Assembly (NCBI GenBank): GCA_021732285.1
Contig: JAKFVH010000201.1
Location: 1-36,766 of the forward strand
Length of the DNA stretch: 36,766 bases
Reading direction: 5' to 3'
Origin: Reyranella sp.
GTDB lineage: Bacteria; Pseudomonadota; Alphaproteobacteria; Reyranellales; Reyranellaceae
The notes below the pieces were generated by a model that ran no database searches, had not been told where the DNA came from, and saw nothing but the letters and a program-made list of their open reading frames with translations. This document shows, piece after piece, positions 14,454 through 26,008 of this stretch. Position numbers and translations under genes: made by a program. Each line of letters opens with the position of its first letter. Within the stretch, counting starts at the first letter, position 1.

Positions 14454-15689
14454 CTAGACGAACGATGGGCGTATCCGGAGCGACTCGCGGTCGAAGCCCG
14501 CGACCTGCTTGTAGCGGTCGGAGATCGCTAGAAGCTCGGCGGGCGAGATCACGTCCTCGATGCGCTCGAAGCGCTGGCCGCCGGAACGCTGCCAGACCTC
14601 GCGCAGGATGGCGTCGGGCGGATTGTTGCGGTTGGCCAGCACGACATTGGCGGTCGCAGGCCCACGCACGGCCTCGTATTGCTGCAGCGCCTGTTCCGTG
14701 GCGCCGAGCTTCTTGATCTCTCCGGTGAGATAGCGCGCATCGATGATCGACTGGCCCGCGCCGTTGGAGCCGCGCGGATACATCGGGTGGGCGGCGTCGC
14801 CCAAGAGCGTGATGCGGCCGAAGGTCCAGCGCGGCAGCGGATCGCGGTCGACCATGGGGTATTCCAGGATCTCCTCGGTGCTCTCGATCATGCCAGTGAT
14901 GTCGAGCCAGTCGAACTTCAGGCCGGCGAAGGCCGGCATCATGTCGGCCAGCCGGCCGCGCCCGGTCCAGTCCTGGCGTACCGCCTCGGGCCGCTCGATC
15001 TCGGCCACCCAGTTGATCAGGGGTTCGGGAGTGCCCGGTCGCACGGGATAGATCACCGTCTTGCCCACCGTCATCCAGCCGGTCGAGACCATGGTGTCGC
15101 CGCCGAGGAACGCCGGCCAGCGCACCGCGCCGCGCCACATGTTGACGCCCGAGTACTTGGGCGGTCCCTGGTCGGGATAGAGCTGCCAACGCAGCGCCGA
15201 ATGGATGCCGTCGCAGCCCACTGCGACCTTGCCGCGCCGGGGCTCGGCCTTGTCGAAGTGAAGCGTGACGCCCGTGCCGTCCTGCTCGACCTTGAGGCAG
15301 CGATGATCGAGCCGTACGGCGTCGCGGCCCAGGCGCTGCACCGTGGCGTCGAGCAGCACCTTGTGCAGGTCGGCGCGATGGATCGAGAGCTGCGGCCAGT
15401 CGTAGCCGGCATAGCGGCCGCGCGGCTCCTTGTAGATGAACTGGCCGTGGCGGCTGTAGAAGGCGAGCTCGCGCGTCTCGATGGCGCACGCCGCCAGCGC
15501 GTCCTGCAGGCCGAGCTCGCAGAGCTCGCGCATGCCGTGCGGCAGGATGTTGATGCCGACGCCGAGCGGCTGAACCTCGGGCGCCGCCTCGAACACGCAC
15601 GAGGAGATGCCGGCCTGATGCAGGCTGAGCGCCAAGGTCAGCCCGCCGATGCCGCCACCGACGATCAGGACATCGGCGTCGTCACTCAC
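14454..15689 (-). CDS. FAD-dependent aromatic-ring-hydroxylase-like monooxygenase
   Basis: A 411-residue class A flavoprotein monooxygenase expected to hydroxylate an aromatic or related substrate with NAD(P)H and O2. The N-terminal dinucleotide-binding motif is VLIVGGGIGGLTLALSL, the DG motif is VGCDGIHSALR and the second FAD motif is LLGDAAHPMYPRGSNGAGQ. The PRGSNGAGQ continuation resembles salicylate/3-hydroxybenzoate hydroxylase relatives. The start is GTG 15689, overlapping the stop of the upstream Bug receptor by 4 bases (GTGA), so expression is coupled. The substrate cannot be named from the sequence. Confidence 0.88.
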   Translation of the reverse strand: MSDDADVLIVGGGIGGLTLALSLHQAGISSCVFEAAPEVQPLGVGINILPHGMRELCELGLQDALAACAIETRELAFYSRHGQFIYKEPRGRYAGYDWPQLSIHRADLHKVLLDATVQRLGRDAVRLDHRCLKVEQDGTGVTLHFDKAEPRRGKVAVGCDGIHSALRWQLYPDQGPPKYSGVNMWRGAVRWPAFLGGDTMVSTGWMTVGKTVIYPVRPGTPEPLINWVAEIERPEAVRQDWTGRGRLADMMPAFAGLKFDWLDITGMIESTEEILEYPMVDRDPLPRWTFGRITLLGDAAHPMYPRGSNGAGQSIIDARYLTGEIKKLGATEQALQQYEAVRGPATANVVLANRNNPPDAILREVWQRSGGQRFERIEDVISPAELLAISDRYKQVAGFDRESLRIRPSFV

Positions 15690-16642
15690 TCAGGCTTGAT
15701 CCCGCGCTTGGCCACGACGTCGGCCCAGCGCCCCTTGTCGCGCACGACGATCTCGCCCAGCGCCGCCGGTGTCGAGGTGGCGGGGATCAGTCCCTGCGCC
15801 TCGAACGCGGCCTTGGCTTCGGGCGACTCGAGGATGGCCGAGATCTCCTTGTTCAGCCGCTCGACAAGTTCAGGCGGCGTGCCTTTGGGGGCGAAGAAGC
15901 CGTACCACATGTCGACATCGACGCCCGCCAGACCGCTCTCGGCCAGGGTCGGCACGTCGGGCAGTTGCGGCAGGCGCTGCGGGCTGCCGGCGGCGATCGC
16001 CTTCAGCTTGCCGGCGCGGATATGCTGGGCCGAGACATGGACCGGCAGGAACATGTAGCCGATCTGGCCGCCCAAAAGATCCTGAACGGCGCCGGCGGTT
16101 CCTTTGTAGGGGACGTGCACCATCTCGATGCCGGCCGCGGTCTCGACCAGCGCCATCGAAAGGTGATGCGGCGTGCCGACGCCGGGGCTGCCGTAGGTCA
16201 GCGTCTTGGGCGAGGCCTTGGCCGCCGCGATCAGCTCGGCGAGCGTGGCGGGCTTCTGACTCGGATGGGCGACCAGCACCAGCGAGCCCCAGGCGCTCAA
16301 GCCCAGCGGCGCGAAGTCGGCCACCGGATCGTAGGTCAGGTTCTTGTACAGGCTGGCGTTCATCACCAGCGTGTTGACCGACGACATCAAGGTGTGGCCG
16401 TCGGGCTTGGCGCGCGCCACCTGCTGGCTGCCGATGTTGCCCGAGGCGCCGGCGACGTTCTCGACGACCACGGGCTGGCCGATCTTGGCCGACAGCCGCT
16501 CGGCCACGAAGCGCGCGATGATGTCGGGACCGGTGCCGGGCGTGAACGGCACGACCAGCTTCACCGGCTGGTCGGGCCAGGCGAAGGCTGCGGGAGCGGC
16601 CAGCAGGGCCGCGGTGGAGGCCAGTATTTGACGACGGCGCAT
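15686..16642 (-). CDS. Bug-family (TctC-like) tricarboxylate-type solute receptor, solitary copy 1
   Basis: A periplasmic binding protein of the Bug/TctC family, 318 residues. It starts with a signal peptide (MRRRQILASTAALLAAPAAFA) followed by the family opening WPDQPVKLVVPFTPGTGPD. Further family blocks are GQPVVVENVAGASGNIG, YGSPGVGTPHHL, VPYKGTAGAVQDLLGGQI and the WYGFFAPKGTP loop. Bug receptors bind organic acids or other small ligands, often for TctAB transporters or signalling; no TctA or TctB gene is present here. It heads a leftward operon with the monooxygenase and the dehydrogenase, so its ligand may be the monooxygenase substrate (inference). Confidence 0.93.
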   Translation of the reverse strand: MRRRQILASTAALLAAPAAFAWPDQPVKLVVPFTPGTGPDIIARFVAERLSAKIGQPVVVENVAGASGNIGSQQVARAKPDGHTLMSSVNTLVMNASLYKNLTYDPVADFAPLGLSAWGSLVLVAHPSQKPATLAELIAAAKASPKTLTYGSPGVGTPHHLSMALVETAAGIEMVHVPYKGTAGAVQDLLGGQIGYMFLPVHVSAQHIRAGKLKAIAAGSPQRLPQLPDVPTLAESGLAGVDVDMWYGFFAPKGTPPELVERLNKEISAILESPEAKAAFEAQGLIPATSTPAALGEIVVRDKGRWADVVAKRGIKPE

Positions 16643-18963: not shown

Positions 18964-20703
18964 ATGACCAGACAACCCCGCCTTTTGACGGCCGAGGCCC
19001 TCGCCAAATGCCCGACCGGCATTCGCGGGCTCGACCAAGTGACCGACGGCGGCCTGCCGCGTAATCGTTCGACCTTGGTCTGCGGCGGACCCGGCGCCGG
19101 CAAGACCCTGCTGGGCCTAGAATTCCTGGCGCGCGGCGCGCGCGACTTCCGCGAGGCCGGCGTCTTCGTGAGCTTCGAGGAGCGGCCTGAGGATCTGGCG
19201 AAGAATGCGGTCTCGCTGGGCTTCGATCTCGGCCGTCTGGCCCGCAGCAAGCGGCTGGTCGTCGAGCACATCGCTCTCGACCGAAACCAGCTCCTCGAAG
19301 CCGGCGAGTACGACCTGGAGGGATTGTTCATCCGCCTCGAGGCGGCCATCGCCTCGGTCGGCGCCAAGCGCGTCGTGCTCGACACGATCGAAGCCTTGTT
19401 CGGAGCGCTGACCAACCAGGGCATTCTGCGCGCCGAGCTCAATCGCCTGTTCTCCTGGCTGAAGGACAAGGGCGTCACGACGGTCATCACGGCCGAGCGC
19501 GGCCAGGGGGCGCTCACCCGCCATGGGCTCGAGGAGTACGTCTCGGACTGCGTGCTCATGCTCGATCAGCGCGTCGACGACCAGATCGCGACCCGGCGCC
19601 TGCGTATCGTCAAGTATCGCGGCTCGACCCACGGGACGAACGAGTACCCGTTCCTGATCGATCGCTCGGGCTTTCTGGTCCTGCCCATCACGGACGTTTC
19701 GCTCGACTATGCCTCGCCCAAGCAGTTCGTTTCGAGCGGCGTCGCCAAGCTCGATGAGATGCTGGGCGGCAAAGGCTACTTCCAGGCCAGCACGGTCATG
19801 GTGTCGGGCACGGCGGGTACGGGAAAGACCAGCCTGGCGGCACATTTCGTCGATGGCGGCTGCCGGCGCGGCGACCGCTGTCTTTATTTCGCGTTCGAAG
19901 AATCGCCGGCGCAGATCATGCGCAACATGCGTTCGGTCGGCATTCACCTTCAGAAGTGGGTGGATCGCGGCTTGCTGACCTTCCATGCGATGCGTCCGAC
20001 GAGCGTCGGCATGGAGACCCATATCAGCTTGATGCTGAAGCAGCTCCAGGATTTCCGGCCACACGTCGTCGTCCTCGATCCTATCTCGAGCTTCGAAGCG
20101 GCGGGCACGCCGCTCGACGCGCACGCCATGCTCATACGTGTGATCGATCTGTTGAAGGCGCGAGGTATCACGACGCTGTTCACCAGCCTGACGTCGGGCG
20201 AAGTCGCCTCCGAGCAAGCCGGCTCAGGCGTATCCTCGCTGATCGATGCCTGGATCTTGCTGCGCAACCTGGAGCAGGGTGGCGAGCGCACCCGGAGCCT
20301 CTACGTGCTCAAAGCGCGTGGCATGCGCCACTCGAATCAGATCCGGGAATTTCTCCTGACCGACCGTGGCGCCGACCTTCAGGACATCTACATCGGCCCC
20401 GAGGGCATTCTCGTTGGATCGGCTCGCGCGGACCAGGAGATGCGCGACCGCGCCTCCGCGGTCGCCTCGCGGCGGGACATCGAGCAGAAGAAAGAGGTGC
20501 TCGAGCGCAAGCACAAGGCGTTCCAGGCGCGCATCGCCGAGCTCGAAGCAGCCTATGCGGCGGAAGCTCACGACCTCAAGGGGGCGATCACCCAGGAAGA
20601 GGGGCGCCTGAAGATCGGGCTGACCGGGCGGACCACTCTGGCTGCTGACCGGCAACGCACGGACAGGACCAGCACCGGGACATCAGGGAGGGCCAGGCGA
20701 TGA
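18964..20703 (+). CDS. kaiC: KaiC-like double-ATPase clock protein with C-terminal coiled-coil tail
   Basis: A 579-residue KaiC homologue, the central ATPase, autokinase and phosphatase of Kai timing systems. It has two RecA-like domains. CI (about residues 15-255) has Walker A GGPGAGKT (41-48) and the catalytic Glu pair E72-E73 in SFEERPED. CII (about 257-485) has Walker A GTAGTGKT (282-289) and E312-E313 in FAFEESPAQ. S424-S425 in GVSSLIDAWILL align with Ser431-Thr432 of the Synechococcus protein, so the phosphosites are Ser-Ser. After CII, a tail of about 90 residues (from ~487) with a heptad-like stretch (ASRRDIEQKKEVLERKHKAF) replaces the short KaiA-binding end. This matches the KaiA-independent purple-bacterial type, in which the tail joins two hexamers. 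The Shine-Dalgarno sequence is weak. The stop overlaps kaiB by 4 bases (ATGA). Confidence 0.93.
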   Translation: MTRQPRLLTAEALAKCPTGIRGLDQVTDGGLPRNRSTLVCGGPGAGKTLLGLEFLARGARDFREAGVFVSFEERPEDLAKNAVSLGFDLGRLARSKRLVVEHIALDRNQLLEAGEYDLEGLFIRLEAAIASVGAKRVVLDTIEALFGALTNQGILRAELNRLFSWLKDKGVTTVITAERGQGALTRHGLEEYVSDCVLMLDQRVDDQIATRRLRIVKYRGSTHGTNEYPFLIDRSGFLVLPITDVSLDYASPKQFVSSGVAKLDEMLGGKGYFQASTVMVSGTAGTGKTSLAAHFVDGGCRRGDRCLYFAFEESPAQIMRNMRSVGIHLQKWVDRGLLTFHAMRPTSVGMETHISLMLKQLQDFRPHVVVLDPISSFEAAGTPLDAHAMLIRVIDLLKARGITTLFTSLTSGEVASEQAGSGVSSLIDAWILLRNLEQGGERTRSLYVLKARGMRHSNQIREFLLTDRGADLQDIYIGPEGILVGSARADQEMRDRASAVASRRDIEQKKEVLERKHKAFQARIAELEAAYAAEAHDLKGAITQEEGRLKIGLTGRTTLAADRQRTDRTSTGTSGRARR

Positions 20704-21080
20704 AGCGCGCGGCTTCGACGAAGAAGAAGGTGACCCGCGCGAGCGCCCGAAAGGCAGCCTCGCCCCGTCCGCAGCGGAACCGTGCCTCCGCAGCGACCGA
20801 CTATGACCTCGTTCTGTTCATCAGTGGTGCCTCCGAGCGGTCCAGGGTGGCTCTCGCCAACATCAAGGTCATCGCCAACGAGCATCTGAAGGGGCGCTAT
20901 AGGCTTTCGGTCGTCGACCTGTACCAACAGCCCCAGCGGGCGCGCGAGCATGAGATCATCGCGGTTCCCACCCTCGTCAGGCGCCTGCCGGCACCCCTGC
21001 GGCGGCTGGTTGGCGACCTGTCGGATGGGGATCGGGTCATGATCGGCCTCGATATCGTGCCGAAGTCGCGTAACGGATAG
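20700..21080 (+). CDS. kaiB: KaiB-like clock protein with basic N-terminal extension
   Basis: A 126-residue protein. Residues about 35-122 form a KaiB domain: YDLVLFISGASERSRVALANI matches the first strand and helix. VVDLYQQPQRAREHEIIAVPTLVRRLP matches the cyanobacterial block with the conserved TPTL-type turn. GDLSDGDRVMIGLDI matches the C-terminal block. In Kai systems KaiB switches fold to a thioredoxin-like form and binds KaiC during the cycle. The first ~33 residues are rich in Lys, Arg, Ser and Ala and are absent from standard KaiB. The gene overlaps kaiC by 4 bases and lies 5 bases before the kinase gene, so the three are co-transcribed. No kaiA is present. Confidence 0.92.
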   Translation: MKRAASTKKKVTRASARKAASPRPQRNRASAATDYDLVLFISGASERSRVALANIKVIANEHLKGRYRLSVVDLYQQPQRAREHEIIAVPTLVRRLPAPLRRLVGDLSDGDRVMIGLDIVPKSRNG

Positions 21081-21085
21081 GGGCA

Positions 21086-22900
21086 ATGGCGAGACGGCCC
21101 GATCCGCGCAGCGCTCGCCGAGCCGAACATCTCGAAGAGCTTGCGGCGCTGCGGGCCCGTGTGAGCGAGGCCGAGGATCTGCTGCGCGCGATCGGCCGCG
21201 GCGAGGTCGATGCCATCGTGAGGCAAGGACCGGCCGGCGATCAGGTCTTCACGCTGGAAGGCGCCGATCGACCCTATCGCACGATGATCGAGACGATGGC
21301 CGAAGGTGCGCTCAGCCTCACCACCGACGGGGCCATTCTCTACGCCAACACGCGCTTTGCCGAGCTGATCGGCTGTGATCTCGACCAGATCATCGGCGCG
21401 TCGCTCAAGGGCTTTGTCTCGCCAGACGACTCCGCCCGCTTCGACGAAGCCCTGCGCCGTGCCGCCGACGGCACGACCCGCGAGCGTCTTCAACTGCGTC
21501 GCGCCGACGGTCGGTTGTTCCTCGCCCAGGTGGCGCTGCGCGGCCTGGATGGCGAGGGCCGCCGGACCATCGTCGCGATCGTCACCGAGCTGGAGGGCGC
21601 GCCGATCGACACCGGCATCGGCGAGCCGGCCCGCAAGGCGGCGCAAATTCTCATGGGCGTGATCGGCGATGTCGAGCAGCGCATGAATCTCGAGGAGCAG
21701 CTCGAGCAGGAGCGCGCCCGGCTGCGGTCGGTCGTCGAGGCGAGCGGCGCCTTGATCGCCCTGGTCGATCCCAAGCTGCAGATCGCCATGGTGAACAAGG
21801 CGTTCACGGCCATCACCGGCATTGGCGAGGCAAAGGCGATCGGCATGCCCTTCGAGCAGGTGATCGACTGCTCCCTGGAGCGCGCCGCCATCGCCGAATG
21901 GCTCGGCAGGACGCCGCCCGGCGACGACGCCCGGACGGTCCAGTTCACCCGGCGCCTGACCGACCCGCAGGGCCGTGAACGCAGCATCTCGATAACGGCG
22001 GCGCCCGTGCTCGATGCCGACGGCAAGACGACCAGCGTGGTTTTCGTGGGCGTCGACGACACCGAACGGCGCGACGCCGAGCAGGCGCTGAACGATGCCG
22101 AGCGTTTCGCCACGGTCGGCGAGATGGCGGGCACGATGGCGCACGAGGTCAGCCAGCCGCTGCAGGTGATCAACCTCGCCTGCGAATCGGCGCGCGACGA
22201 GCTGCTGGAGGCCCGTGAGCGCGGCGATGCTCCCGATGCGGAGTTCGTGAGAGCCAAGCTCGACCGCATAACCCACCAGATCGAGACCGCGAGCCGCATC
22301 GTCGAGGACCTGCGCAACTTCGTCCGCGGTGGCGATGCCCGTTCGACCGCGCCCTTCGATCCCACCGAGGCGGTCAACAGCGCCGTCCGCCTGACCGAGT
22401 ACGGGGCGCGGCAGGCGGGCATCGAGCTATCGTTGGAACTGGCCGGGCATCTTCCGCGGGTGGTCGGCAATGCCGGCCAGCTCGAGCAGGTGCTGATAAA
22501 CCTGATCAACAATGCGCGCGACTCGGTCAGCGCGATCCAGGATCGGCAGGCGACCAAGATCATCGAGGTGTCCGCGTCGACGGTGATCCATGACGGCGTC
22601 GACCTGGTGCAGATCGCGGTCGCCGACAGCGGTCCCGGCATCCCGGCGCATGTCCTGCCTCACCTGTTCAATTCGTTCATCACCACGAAGGCCCGCGGCA
22701 AGGGCACGGGTCTGGGACTTCGCATCTGCCGACGGATCGTCGTGGAGATGCACGGCAACATACAGGCCACGAATCGTCCCCAGGGCGGCGCTCGTTTCGA
22801 GATCACCCTGCCGGCGATGCCCACCGTCGACCGGGACAGCCCGGGGCGCGCCTGGCCGGACCTTGCGGCATTGTTATCCGCGAAATCCACAGAACCGTAA
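21086..22900 (+). CDS. Soluble PAS-PAS histidine kinase, likely output kinase of the Kai operon
   Basis: A 604-residue kinase without membrane segments. The N-terminus has a helical stretch with AIGRGEVDAIVRQG and VFTLEGADRPYRTMIETMAEGA, a signature common in kinases next to kaiBC in Proteobacteria. PAS domains lie at about residues 58-175 and 210-335. The dimerisation and phosphoacceptor domain has H353 in GTMAHEVSQPLQVINL. The ATPase domain (about 440-585) has an N box in LINLINNARDSV, G1 ADSGPGIP, an F box in LFNSFITTKARGKG and G2 GTGLGLRIC. The domain order suggests an NtrB/FixL-like soluble sensor. It probably reads the state of KaiC or KaiB, though a redox or light signal at the PAS domains is also possible. 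No response regulator gene is in the window. Confidence 0.9.
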   Translation: MARRPDPRSARRAEHLEELAALRARVSEAEDLLRAIGRGEVDAIVRQGPAGDQVFTLEGADRPYRTMIETMAEGALSLTTDGAILYANTRFAELIGCDLDQIIGASLKGFVSPDDSARFDEALRRAADGTTRERLQLRRADGRLFLAQVALRGLDGEGRRTIVAIVTELEGAPIDTGIGEPARKAAQILMGVIGDVEQRMNLEEQLEQERARLRSVVEASGALIALVDPKLQIAMVNKAFTAITGIGEAKAIGMPFEQVIDCSLERAAIAEWLGRTPPGDDARTVQFTRRLTDPQGRERSISITAAPVLDADGKTTSVVFVGVDDTERRDAEQALNDAERFATVGEMAGTMAHEVSQPLQVINLACESARDELLEARERGDAPDAEFVRAKLDRITHQIETASRIVEDLRNFVRGGDARSTAPFDPTEAVNSAVRLTEYGARQAGIELSLELAGHLPRVVGNAGQLEQVLINLINNARDSVSAIQDRQATKIIEVSASTVIHDGVDLVQIAVADSGPGIPAHVLPHLFNSFITTKARGKGTGLGLRICRRIVVEMHGNIQATNRPQGGARFEITLPAMPTVDRDSPGRAWPDLAALLSAKSTEP

Positions 22901-22979
22901 CTTGGGTTTCGCGTCGGGCTCAGCCTAAGACTGCAGACGGGCTGCGACCGCGGTCCGCGTCTTATCTCACAGGTCCAAC

Positions 22980-25024: not shown

Positions 25025-26008
25025 ATGCTGTCTCGCCGTCGCTTCGCGGTTCTCGCCGCCCTTGCTGCTCCCCCTCTTGTGCGTGGGGGCGTCGCCGCGG
25101 CACAGACTCCCTGGCCGTCGAAGCCGATCCGCTGGATCGTTAACTTTCCGCCGGCGGGCGCGGCCGACATCCTGTCGCGAACCCTGGCCGAGTATTTCGG
25201 CAGCCGGCTCGGCCAGCCGATCGTCGTCGAGAACAAGCCCGGCGCCGGCGGCCTTTTGGGCGCCGACATCGTCGCCAAGGCGCGCGGCGATGCGCACGTC
25301 GTCATGATGTCGAGCGCCGCGTCGCACGGCATCGGACCGGTCCTCTACAAGGACGTGCCCTACGATCCGCTGGGCGACTTCACGCACATCCATCCGGTCG
25401 GGACGTTTCCCAGCGTGCTTGCCGTGAACGGCGGTTCGACGATCACGAGTGCCCGGCAGCTCATCGATCTGGCACGCAGCAAGCCCGGCGAGGTCACCTA
25501 CGGCTCCGGCGGCAACGGCACGATGAACCATCTCGTCGGCCAGCTGCTGGCGCGGTCGGCCGGCGTGCAACTGACCCACATTCCCTATCGCGGCTCGGCG
25601 CCGGCGATGAACGACCTTTTGGGCGGCCAGATCACGGCGCTCATGGAGAGCCTGCCGACGGCGATCGGCTACTTCAATGCGGGGCGCATGCGTCCGCTCG
25701 CCGTCAGCGAAGCGGAAAGATCGCCGTCGCTGCCCGACACCCCGACCCTCCGCGAAGCCGGCTTCCAGGATGTCGTCGCGACCAACTGGTTCGGGTTCTC
25801 GGCGCCAGCCGACATCCCTCGTGACGTAGCCCTCCGATGGGAGACGGAGATCGCGACAGCGTTGCAGAGCAGCCAGGTCCGTGAGGCCTTCGGCAAGATC
25901 GGCGTCAGGCCCGGCGCCTTGGGAGCGGCCGCCTATACCGACTTGATCCGCAGCGAACTCGCGCGATGGAAGGAAGTCATTCGCATCGGCAACATCCGCG
26001 CCGATTAG
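25025..26008 (+). CDS. Bug-family (TctC-like) solute receptor, solitary copy 2
   Basis: A periplasmic binding protein of about 327 residues. The N-terminus MLSRRRFAVLAALAAPPLV has a twin-Arg-like pattern (SRRRFAV), so export may be Tat-dependent. The mature region opens WPSKPIRWIVNFPPAGAADILSR, followed by GQPIVVENKPGAGGLLGADIV, the YGSGGNGTMNHL block, IPYRGSAPAMNDLLGGQI and NWFGFSAPADIPRD. There is no TctAB partner, as with the first copy. It is divergent from the amidohydrolase, which may act on its ligand. ATG 25025 is chosen because the upstream frame runs antisense through the amidohydrolase gene. Confidence 0.92.
   Translation: MLSRRRFAVLAALAAPPLVRGGVAAAQTPWPSKPIRWIVNFPPAGAADILSRTLAEYFGSRLGQPIVVENKPGAGGLLGADIVAKARGDAHVVMMSSAASHGIGPVLYKDVPYDPLGDFTHIHPVGTFPSVLAVNGGSTITSARQLIDLARSKPGEVTYGSGGNGTMNHLVGQLLARSAGVQLTHIPYRGSAPAMNDLLGGQITALMESLPTAIGYFNAGRMRPLAVSEAERSPSLPDTPTLREAGFQDVVATNWFGFSAPADIPRDVALRWETEIATALQSSQVREAFGKIGVRPGALGAAAYTDLIRSELARWKEVIRIGNIRAD

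Follow-up and report, generated by a model that had tools for sequence, protein, structure and literature searches.

The window, meaning the whole stretch of 36,766 nucleotides of Reyranella sp. DNA analysed here, carries kaiC, kaiB and a gene for a PAS-PAS histidine kinase as a tight three-gene operon. By the ORF calls, kaiC and kaiB overlap by 4 bases and a gap of 5 bases separates kaiB from the kinase gene, in agreement with the three tightly packed genes claimed by a first-pass annotation, whose observations were confirmed as a whole. Since the kaiC-kaiB-PAS/kinase arrangement is already published for R. palustris and R. sphaeroides, the operon is a further member of this kind. Its features are as follows.

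18964..20703 (+), kaiC, 579 aa, apparently of the coil-tailed KaiC2 type (ORF; 626 bits to 8dba)
19087..19107 (+), CI Walker A, GPGAGKT, residues 42-48 (motif)
19177..19182 (+), CI catalytic Glu pair E72-E73 (motif and alignment)
19807..19830 (+), CII Walker A, GTAGTGKT, residues 282-289 (motif)
19897..19902 (+), CII Glu pair E312-E313 (motif and alignment)
20233..20238 (+), predicted phosphosites S424-S425, R. sphaeroides S413-S414 (alignment)
20428..20700 (+), putative C-terminal coil tail, residues 489-579 (alignment to 8dba, without gaps up to residue 563)
20700..21080 (+), kaiB, 126 aa, of the distal type among the paralogs (KaiB-b), N-terminal extension basic (ORF, Pfam, tree)
20814..21056 (+), KaiB domain (Pfam PF07689, 82 bits)
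21086..22900 (+), soluble histidine kinase, 604 aa (ORF, Pfam)
21104..21253 (+), helix plus beta-hairpin front module, residues 7-56, with D42 at 21209-21211 (profile, alignment)
21275..21574 (+), PAS1, residues 64-163 (Pfam, structure prediction/fold search)
21734..22072 (+), PAS2, residues 217-329, inside the region common to the genus kinases (Pfam, similarity)
22118..22330 (+), HisKA with H353 in HEVSQPL (Pfam, motif)
22469..22816 (+), HATPase_c with what we take to be the N, G1, F and G2 boxes (Pfam, motif)
22938..22957 (+), possible terminator-like hairpin 3' of the kinase gene (weak: 6 such in the region against 2.7 expected)

The cassette genes have a GC content of 65-68%, close to that of the window (67%), so base composition was discarded as a guide to recent acquisition. 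Scans of the window for repeats, tRNA and Rfam families gave nothing useful.

KaiC and KaiB

We then compared the products with their relatives. The related loci were the best 80 of 573, and the set thus samples near relatives. Among seven other loci of the class, L119, L120, L121 and L123 entered the 85-locus table and L122, L124 and L125 were left out, L124 and L125 forming the outgroup. L122, which stands outside the counts, encodes a KaiC of 53% identity with Ser-Ser and no coil tail, and the 1.4 kb after it holds neither kaiB nor the front module. G020, of the window's genus, has a KaiC fragment of 44 residues (59%) from the start of the protein, which does not reveal the type.

KaiC contains two RecA-like domains, each with the Walker A motif (from residues 42 and 282) and the catalytic Glu pair (72-73 and 312-313) that the first-pass annotation had assigned, and EE occupies both Glu sites in 102 of 105 aligned KaiC rows, outgroup included. 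The nearest solved structures are those of R. sphaeroides KaiC (8dba, 8fwi and 8db3; 607-626 bits), the 8dba match covering residues 12-563. The assignment of S424-S425 as phosphosite positions was likewise borne out, as these residues fall in the exact columns of the Glu-Glu in 8fwi, the S413E/S414E entry; the pair is SS in 95, TS in two and AS in one of 98 in-group KaiC rows, with the window and R. sphaeroides counted in. The claim of a coiled-coil tail of about 90 residues stood in part. The tail, of 91 residues, aligns gap-free to the dodecamer-forming R. sphaeroides coil, but its own heptad signal is insignificant (1778 of 5000 shuffles were equally strong). Taken together, the 98 rows give 3.53 as the best period, equalled by 252 of 5000 shuffles, with large residues conserved at 513, 520, 524, 527, 531 and 559, and R563 in 97 of the rows. 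The tail is thus probably a coiled coil by homology rather than by its own signal and, as judged from these alignments, KaiC is a KaiC2-type, coil-tailed protein of the R. sphaeroides kind. The KaiA of a self-sustained KaiABC circadian oscillator (PF07688) was not found in a genome-wide search of the 81% complete assembly, in line with the earlier claim of no kaiA, a result that applies to the PF07688 family rather than to the divergent KaiA3 type.

KaiB is intact as claimed, with its PF07689 domain, but is not of the R. sphaeroides type, and it stays below the thresholds that NCBIfam sets for its two KaiB equivalog models, with 78.7 against 110 and 75.7 against 145.3 bits. Two kaiB paralogs occur in 62 of the 85 compared loci, and the window carries only the second (distal) one, the first (proximal) being missing. 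Indeed, the KaiB tree places the window on the distal side and R. sphaeroides KaiB on the proximal side (split support 98; 91 columns, no bootstrap), and a single KaiB was found in the genome, at 81% completeness. Published KaiB behaviour may therefore not transfer to this protein; in open-licence papers we found no test of a distal KaiB alone and, supplements excepted, no account of paired kaiB in coil-tailed loci. An AlphaFold2 model of KaiB (pLDDT 65) was too uncertain as a guide to the ground versus the switched fold. That KaiB-b might be a split SasA sensor was also left as no more than an idea, no ORF among the loci having both KaiB and kinase matches.

The kinase and its front module

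The downstream protein is soluble, as the first-pass annotation had stated, with two PAS domains, HisKA and HATPase_c; no segment is of membrane type, the mean hydropathy over 19 residues peaking at 1.2. Its core scores 209-291 bits to 15 genus paralogs, whereas no other kinase of the locus set exceeds 87 bits, and groups with the genus kinases in the tree (branch 96). Of the 24 close kinases 23 carry the front module, against 0 of the next 96 matches listed, and six of the 15 genus paralogs align across PAS1 as well, from residue ~50-60. By these comparisons the kinase is composite, its first ~60 residues being a module of KaiBC cassettes and PAS2 with the catalytic core belonging to a kinase family of its own genus; since the core belongs to that family, the output part seems to have been exchanged behind a conserved, putative front reader, at a point that may lie before or after PAS1.

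The helix plus beta-hairpin module precedes PAS in all 71 linked downstream proteins, across which D42 is invariant, and in the R. sphaeroides kinase. The 71 all exceed 20 bits on the module profile, 70 of them 40 bits, a result partly conditional on their selection, for which the window kinase served as query (E up to 1e-8); that kinase scores 120 bits and is itself one of the 28 profile rows. At E 0.01 the module is absent from all 26 other kinase-like ORFs of the compared loci. A linked protein is lacking in 14 of 85 loci, in three through too little room; for the remaining 11 of 82, seven genomes were searched and none held a module protein anywhere.

Genome-wide searches in three overlapping samples tied the module to kaiB, which it adjoins in 5/5, 9/9 and 45/46 matches. 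In the class sample it occurs in five of 385 genomes; any KaiB was found in 14 (E 1e-8), of which the nine with other KaiBC types have no module, and the other 371, all without KaiB, yielded none either. The phylum sample yielded it in nine of 329 genomes, each time behind kaiC-kaiB. The 50 locus genomes gave 46 matches, 43 in the cassette, two beside a second kaiB pair and one orphan without kaiB nearby (L171). The hairpin and D42 lie ahead of the PAS fold. A fold search with the front region returned PAS domains, mostly over ~115 columns, the longer alignments of the top 50 having rmsd 5-10, and none of these 50 was seen to match the helix-hairpin itself; nor did we find a published description of the module in open-licence papers, supplements excepted.

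By raw counts, the module accompanies KaiB-b in 67 of 69 loci against 3 of 13 without KaiB-b; adding five plasmid loci, with KaiB typed by eye, makes this 68 of 70 and 7 of 17. As strict partners the two were rejected, since phylogenetically independent pairs were insignificant (of 6 pairs, a mean of 2.1 agreed in direction and 0 ran opposite) and since the only KaiB that accompanies the module in R. sphaeroides is proximal. Behind the module, ten tested outputs comprise HisKA, HisKA_3 (one with a receiver), HATPase only, HD_5, GGDEF-EAL, a sigma-54 activator with HTH, and PAS only; L021 is a complete linked protein of 238 aa without a catalytic part recognised by Pfam.

Discussion

SasA is the kinase output of cyanobacterial KaiABC, a system that the cassette resembles in outline in its KaiB, double-domain KaiC and kinase output. 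Unlike that system, the window has Ser-Ser instead of Ser-Thr and no KaiA was found, and the N-terminus of its kinase is helix, hairpin and PAS rather than a KaiB-like domain. The closest counterpart is KaiBC of R. sphaeroides KD131 (8dba, 8fwi, 8fwj; PMC10076222), alike in the KaiC domains, Ser-Ser, the gap-free coil tail and the kaiC-kaiB-kinase order, where the kinase also bears the front module (68.5 bits). There, however, the single KaiB is proximal and the kinase is annotated HWE, against a distal KaiB and a HisKA kinase of the genus family here. The word 'histidine' is absent from the main text of that structural study, which thus seems silent on the kinase. To judge from its description, the R. 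palustris operon, of a kaiC-dependent, proto-circadian system, has the same make-up (PMC4794148). RtaNt kinases of kaiB-less kaiC loci (Ramlibacter; PMC3164672) likewise have a conserved front domain that marks KaiC-linked kinases, but by description theirs is receiver/KaiB-like, whereas ours is a helix-hairpin before PAS, behind kaiB.

We propose, as an even call, that in this KaiC2-type cassette without a detected kaiA the front module reads the KaiC/KaiB state and switches the attached output. By homology, KaiC hexamers would join tail to tail through the coil into a dodecamer, and KaiC would autophosphorylate S424-S425 at high ATP and lose the phosphates at high ADP. The distal-type KaiB would bind the CI ring and favour dephosphorylation; the module, as reading head, would sense this state and, via PAS1, switch whichever output is attached, the signal presumably running in this direction. 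In the window the output would be the PAS2-HisKA-HATPase kinase of the genus family, probably acting on an unlinked response regulator, and the whole may, by homology, keep time as an hourglass or damped timer. Of the first-pass interpretation, the kind of cassette and the absence of a detected KaiA hold, and output through the downstream kinase is plausible; the type of KaiB and the composite kinase depart from it or go beyond it.

KaiBC may instead be an energy or stress switch that responds to ATP:ADP without timing anything, an idea of appreciable though minor weight. R. sphaeroides KaiC phosphostate tracks the ATP:ADP ratio, its ATPase is not temperature compensated (PMC10076222), and a cited title ties the Legionella kai operon to stress; against this, R. 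palustris is described as showing kai-dependent growth under 24-h cycles as opposed to other conditions (PMC4794148).

It is somewhat unlikely that the front module is a mere N-terminal cap or dimerising helix travelling with the operon. A long helix ahead of PAS is common, and the module-KaiB-b link is insignificant once kinship is removed; yet the module stays constant while the outputs behind it differ, includes a hairpin and D42 before the PAS fold, and is missing from the KaiB-less genomes of the class sample. Rather improbably, the downstream PAS protein could act on the input side, as a sensor of oxygen, redox or light by which KaiC is set, and not as a reader of KaiC. Its PAS domains would suit this role, and the R. 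sphaeroides kinase is suggested as a redox input in passages of PMC5520375 and PMC10931921, but several of the ten linked proteins end in effector-like GGDEF-EAL, HD-type or sigma-54 activator parts, and L021 is complete with no recognised catalytic part. That faulty binning or assembly has attached a foreign cassette to this genome is very improbable: the genome is a draft (313 contigs) and 36 other genomes of the genus hold no full KaiC of at least 50% identity, but the cassette lies on one continuous 36.8-kb contig, its kinase core is of the family proper to the genus, in five cases KaiC, KaiB and the kinase have close relatives that coincide, and a KaiC relative at 85% bears the name Reyranella sp.

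Tentatively and at somewhat less than an even chance, KaiA-less coil-tailed KaiC timers of bacteria and some archaea would share one reading head that touches KaiC or KaiB, with kinases of several families, c-di-GMP enzymes and sigma-54 activators as interchangeable outputs, and would descend from a cassette with two role-divided KaiBs, of which the window keeps the reading head's commonest companion. Given the two kaiB paralogs, results for one KaiB type should not be extended to all KaiBC systems. The module, of ~50 residues, with few exceptions located behind kaiB and present in R. sphaeroides too, is a testable candidate for KaiBC output coupling and a sequence tag for finding KaiBC outputs. 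A front piece shared by very different outputs suggests how non-cyanobacterial KaiBC timers may relay their signal.

The kaiC–kaiB–kinase operon

The first-pass annotation had described three tightly packed genes, with a 4-base overlap and then a 5-base gap, and the coordinates agree:

18964–20703, kaiC (ORF)
20700–21080, kaiB, overlapping kaiC by 4 bases
21086–22900, kinase gene, 5-base gap after kaiB

In KaiC the two Walker A motifs and the two Glu pairs are indeed present, and among solved structures it is closest to the KaiC entries of R. sphaeroides (607–626 bits; next entry 364). S424-S425, proposed as the phosphosites, aligned with both columns turned to Glu in 8fwi, the R. sphaeroides KaiC structure with S413E/S414E, and the pair is SS in 95 of the 98 in-group KaiC rows (window and R. 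sphaeroides counted), TS in 2, and AS in 1. The tail aligned gap-free with R. sphaeroides KaiC up to residue 563, but taken by itself the window tail showed no significant heptad signal (1778/5000 shuffles), while the 98-row tail profile gave a marginal one (best period 3.53; 252/5000 shuffles); the predicted coil thus rests on homology. KaiA, claimed to be absent, was not found in the genome searched (81% complete), which contains a single KaiB. KaiB has a basic N-terminal extension of ~34 residues (20700–20801), with similar lengths in most close relatives listed. Upstream of the operon, a TctC-type solute-binding protein (Pfam) is encoded at 15686–16642; a putative second look-alike lies downstream, near 25200–26000.

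PMC4794148 describes a kaiC-kaiB-PAS/kinase operon in both R. palustris and R. sphaeroides, PMC3164672 places kinases or GGDEF/EAL proteins behind kaiC-kaiB, and PMC10076222 describes Ser-Ser sites, a C-terminal extension in the kaiC2 group, a dodecamer, and hourglass behaviour dependent on ATP:ADP. Since the operon, sites, extension, dodecamer, and hourglass are already in print, the window operon is a new member of a kind already known.

A conserved front module

In the 71 downstream cassette proteins linked by similarity to the window kinase (E up to 1e-8), the match begins at about residue 5–25, and many of them have little likeness to the kinase core. The shared front module has the consensus L-R-x-R-L-x-E-A-E-E-T-L-x-A-I-R-x-G-E-V-D-A-L-V-V-x-G-x-x-G-x-Q-V-F-T-L, followed by PAS; D42 is conserved in 71/71, N88 in 70/71, and R65 in 69/71. 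AlphaFold2 predicted a helix (7–37), a beta-hairpin (43–56), and then PAS, with a mean pLDDT of 91. The PDB matches listed for this front were PAS proteins, and no Pfam family was found over residues 7–56. A module profile (28 rows, 81 columns) scored above 20 bits with all 71 linked proteins and above 40 bits with 70, and gave only partial matches (≤22 bits) with the other ORFs of 85 compared loci. In Sinorhizobium sp. B11 (L167, 7979–9461), the annotation splits the module protein that follows kaiB into two overlapping genes, a PAS protein and a kinase.

The module occurred in 5 of 385 class-sample genomes, one copy each, all adjoining kaiB; KaiB was present in 14, of which 9 lack the module, and no module was found in the 371 without KaiB. 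In the phylum sample, all 9 positive genomes (of 329) have it behind kaiC-kaiB. The prefilter of both searches scored only part of the candidates per genome, so that absences are not proof, and the samples overlap (e.g., G532 and G457 are one and the same place). The 50 locus genomes gave 46 matches in 43 genomes: 43 cassette proteins (recognised by identical open-frame lengths), 2 adjoining a second kaiB pair, and 1 orphan, the only copy found away from kaiB, which forms the start of a multi-PAS hybrid kinase of 1750 residues in an Acidobacteria genome (L171, 5019–10271). Of 285 plasmid records matching KaiC, the five loci examined, R. sphaeroides KD131 included, all carry it. The module seems to accompany coil-tailed KaiC, because other KaiBC types lack it, as does L122 (KaiC 53%, Ser-Ser), the only in-group KaiC of the class sample without a coil tail, behind which neither kaiB nor module lies.

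Apparently swapped outputs and a composite kinase

A Pfam scan of ten linked proteins detected HisKA (1), HisKA_3 with or without receiver (2), HATPase without known HisKA (1), a sigma-54 activator with HTH (1), HD_5 (2), GGDEF-EAL (1), and PAS only (2, one ending with its contig).

Sequence comparison identifies the window kinase as a composite. Residues ~180–580 match 15 further kinases of its own genus, 6 of them already from residue ~50–60, with core scores of 209–291 bits versus at most 87 for any other kinase of the locus set. In a core tree, which took in only the 17 linked proteins with enough core match, the window core lies inside the genus family (branch 96). The module is present in 23 of 24 close kinases (74–92% identity; 2 of the 23 cut short); the 96 next listed matches gave nothing beyond a 9-bit piece. 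Equal-size longest contigs were shared by KaiC and kinase in 5 close relatives, KaiB and kinase in 8, and KaiC and KaiB in 12; these are lower bounds, covering all 24 close kinases and part of the KaiB/KaiC lists, and equal size is no proof of one contig.

Two kaiB paralogs

Across 85 loci (the window, the best 80 of 573 related loci, and 4 of 7 other class loci), 62 have a proximal as well as a distal kaiB (KaiB-b), the first and second copies behind kaiC, 9 proximal only, 9 distal only, including the window, and 5 none. A KaiB tree of only 91 columns, without bootstrap, parts the two with branch support 98: all proximal copies group with R. sphaeroides and three cyanobacterial KaiB, and all distal copies with the window KaiB. 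The two systems are thus mirror images, R. sphaeroides having the proximal and the window the distal KaiB. The earlier interpretation is partly supported: it holds for a coil-tailed, R. sphaeroides-like KaiC in a kaiC-kaiB-kinase operon; the KaiB is not of R. sphaeroides type. The kaiC locus of an uncultured archaeon (L019, 7686–8894) has three consecutive kaiB, one of them distal and the other two proximal.

Mapping the distal-only label onto the KaiC tree requires 5 changes, and well-supported branches impose at least 3 of these. In another Reyranella sp. MAG, the KaiC and KaiB pieces both have a 2223-base longest contig listed; once KaiC (572 residues) and the distal KaiB (90 residues) are accounted for, 234 bases would remain, too short for a proximal kaiB, so its loss seems to predate the window's genome.

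No full-length KaiC with at least 50% identity was found in 36 other genus genomes searched; G020 has a 44-residue KaiC start (59%), G022 (L091) another type of KaiBC, whose long-tailed KaiC (39%) reads SM rather than SS at the phosphosites, and five others KaiC at 34–35%. With few genus KaiC and ~30 metagenome relatives at 74–86%, the distribution looks like sporadic keeping or transfer. The window's own genome encodes a second, 500-aa KaiC-like protein with a hybrid kinase, but no kaiB, behind it (L008, contig C27, 6484–9668); its phosphosites are TY by eye, as in the kaiB-less group described for Ramlibacter.

Proposed working

By homology, KaiC hexamers would assemble tail to tail, KaiC would phosphorylate S424-S425, and KaiB would bind CI of KaiC. 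Because the outputs vary, the downstream protein would act as output rather than input, and we infer that the conserved module, rather than the variable output, would touch KaiC or KaiB. The response regulator of the window kinase would be unlinked. Alternatively, the module may simply form a passive cap. Against a contact, the module is lacking in 11 of the 82 loci that had room for it; genome-wide searches gave no match for L044, L049, L056, L073, L074 (all proximal KaiB only), L079 (both), and L080 (none), all with coil-tailed KaiC. The co-occurrence with KaiB-b (67/69 versus 3/13 without, raw counts) was also not significant with kinship taken out. New in the window are the distal-KaiB-only make-up and the composite kinase, and the front module, as the putative contact, is the main point of interest of the cassette.
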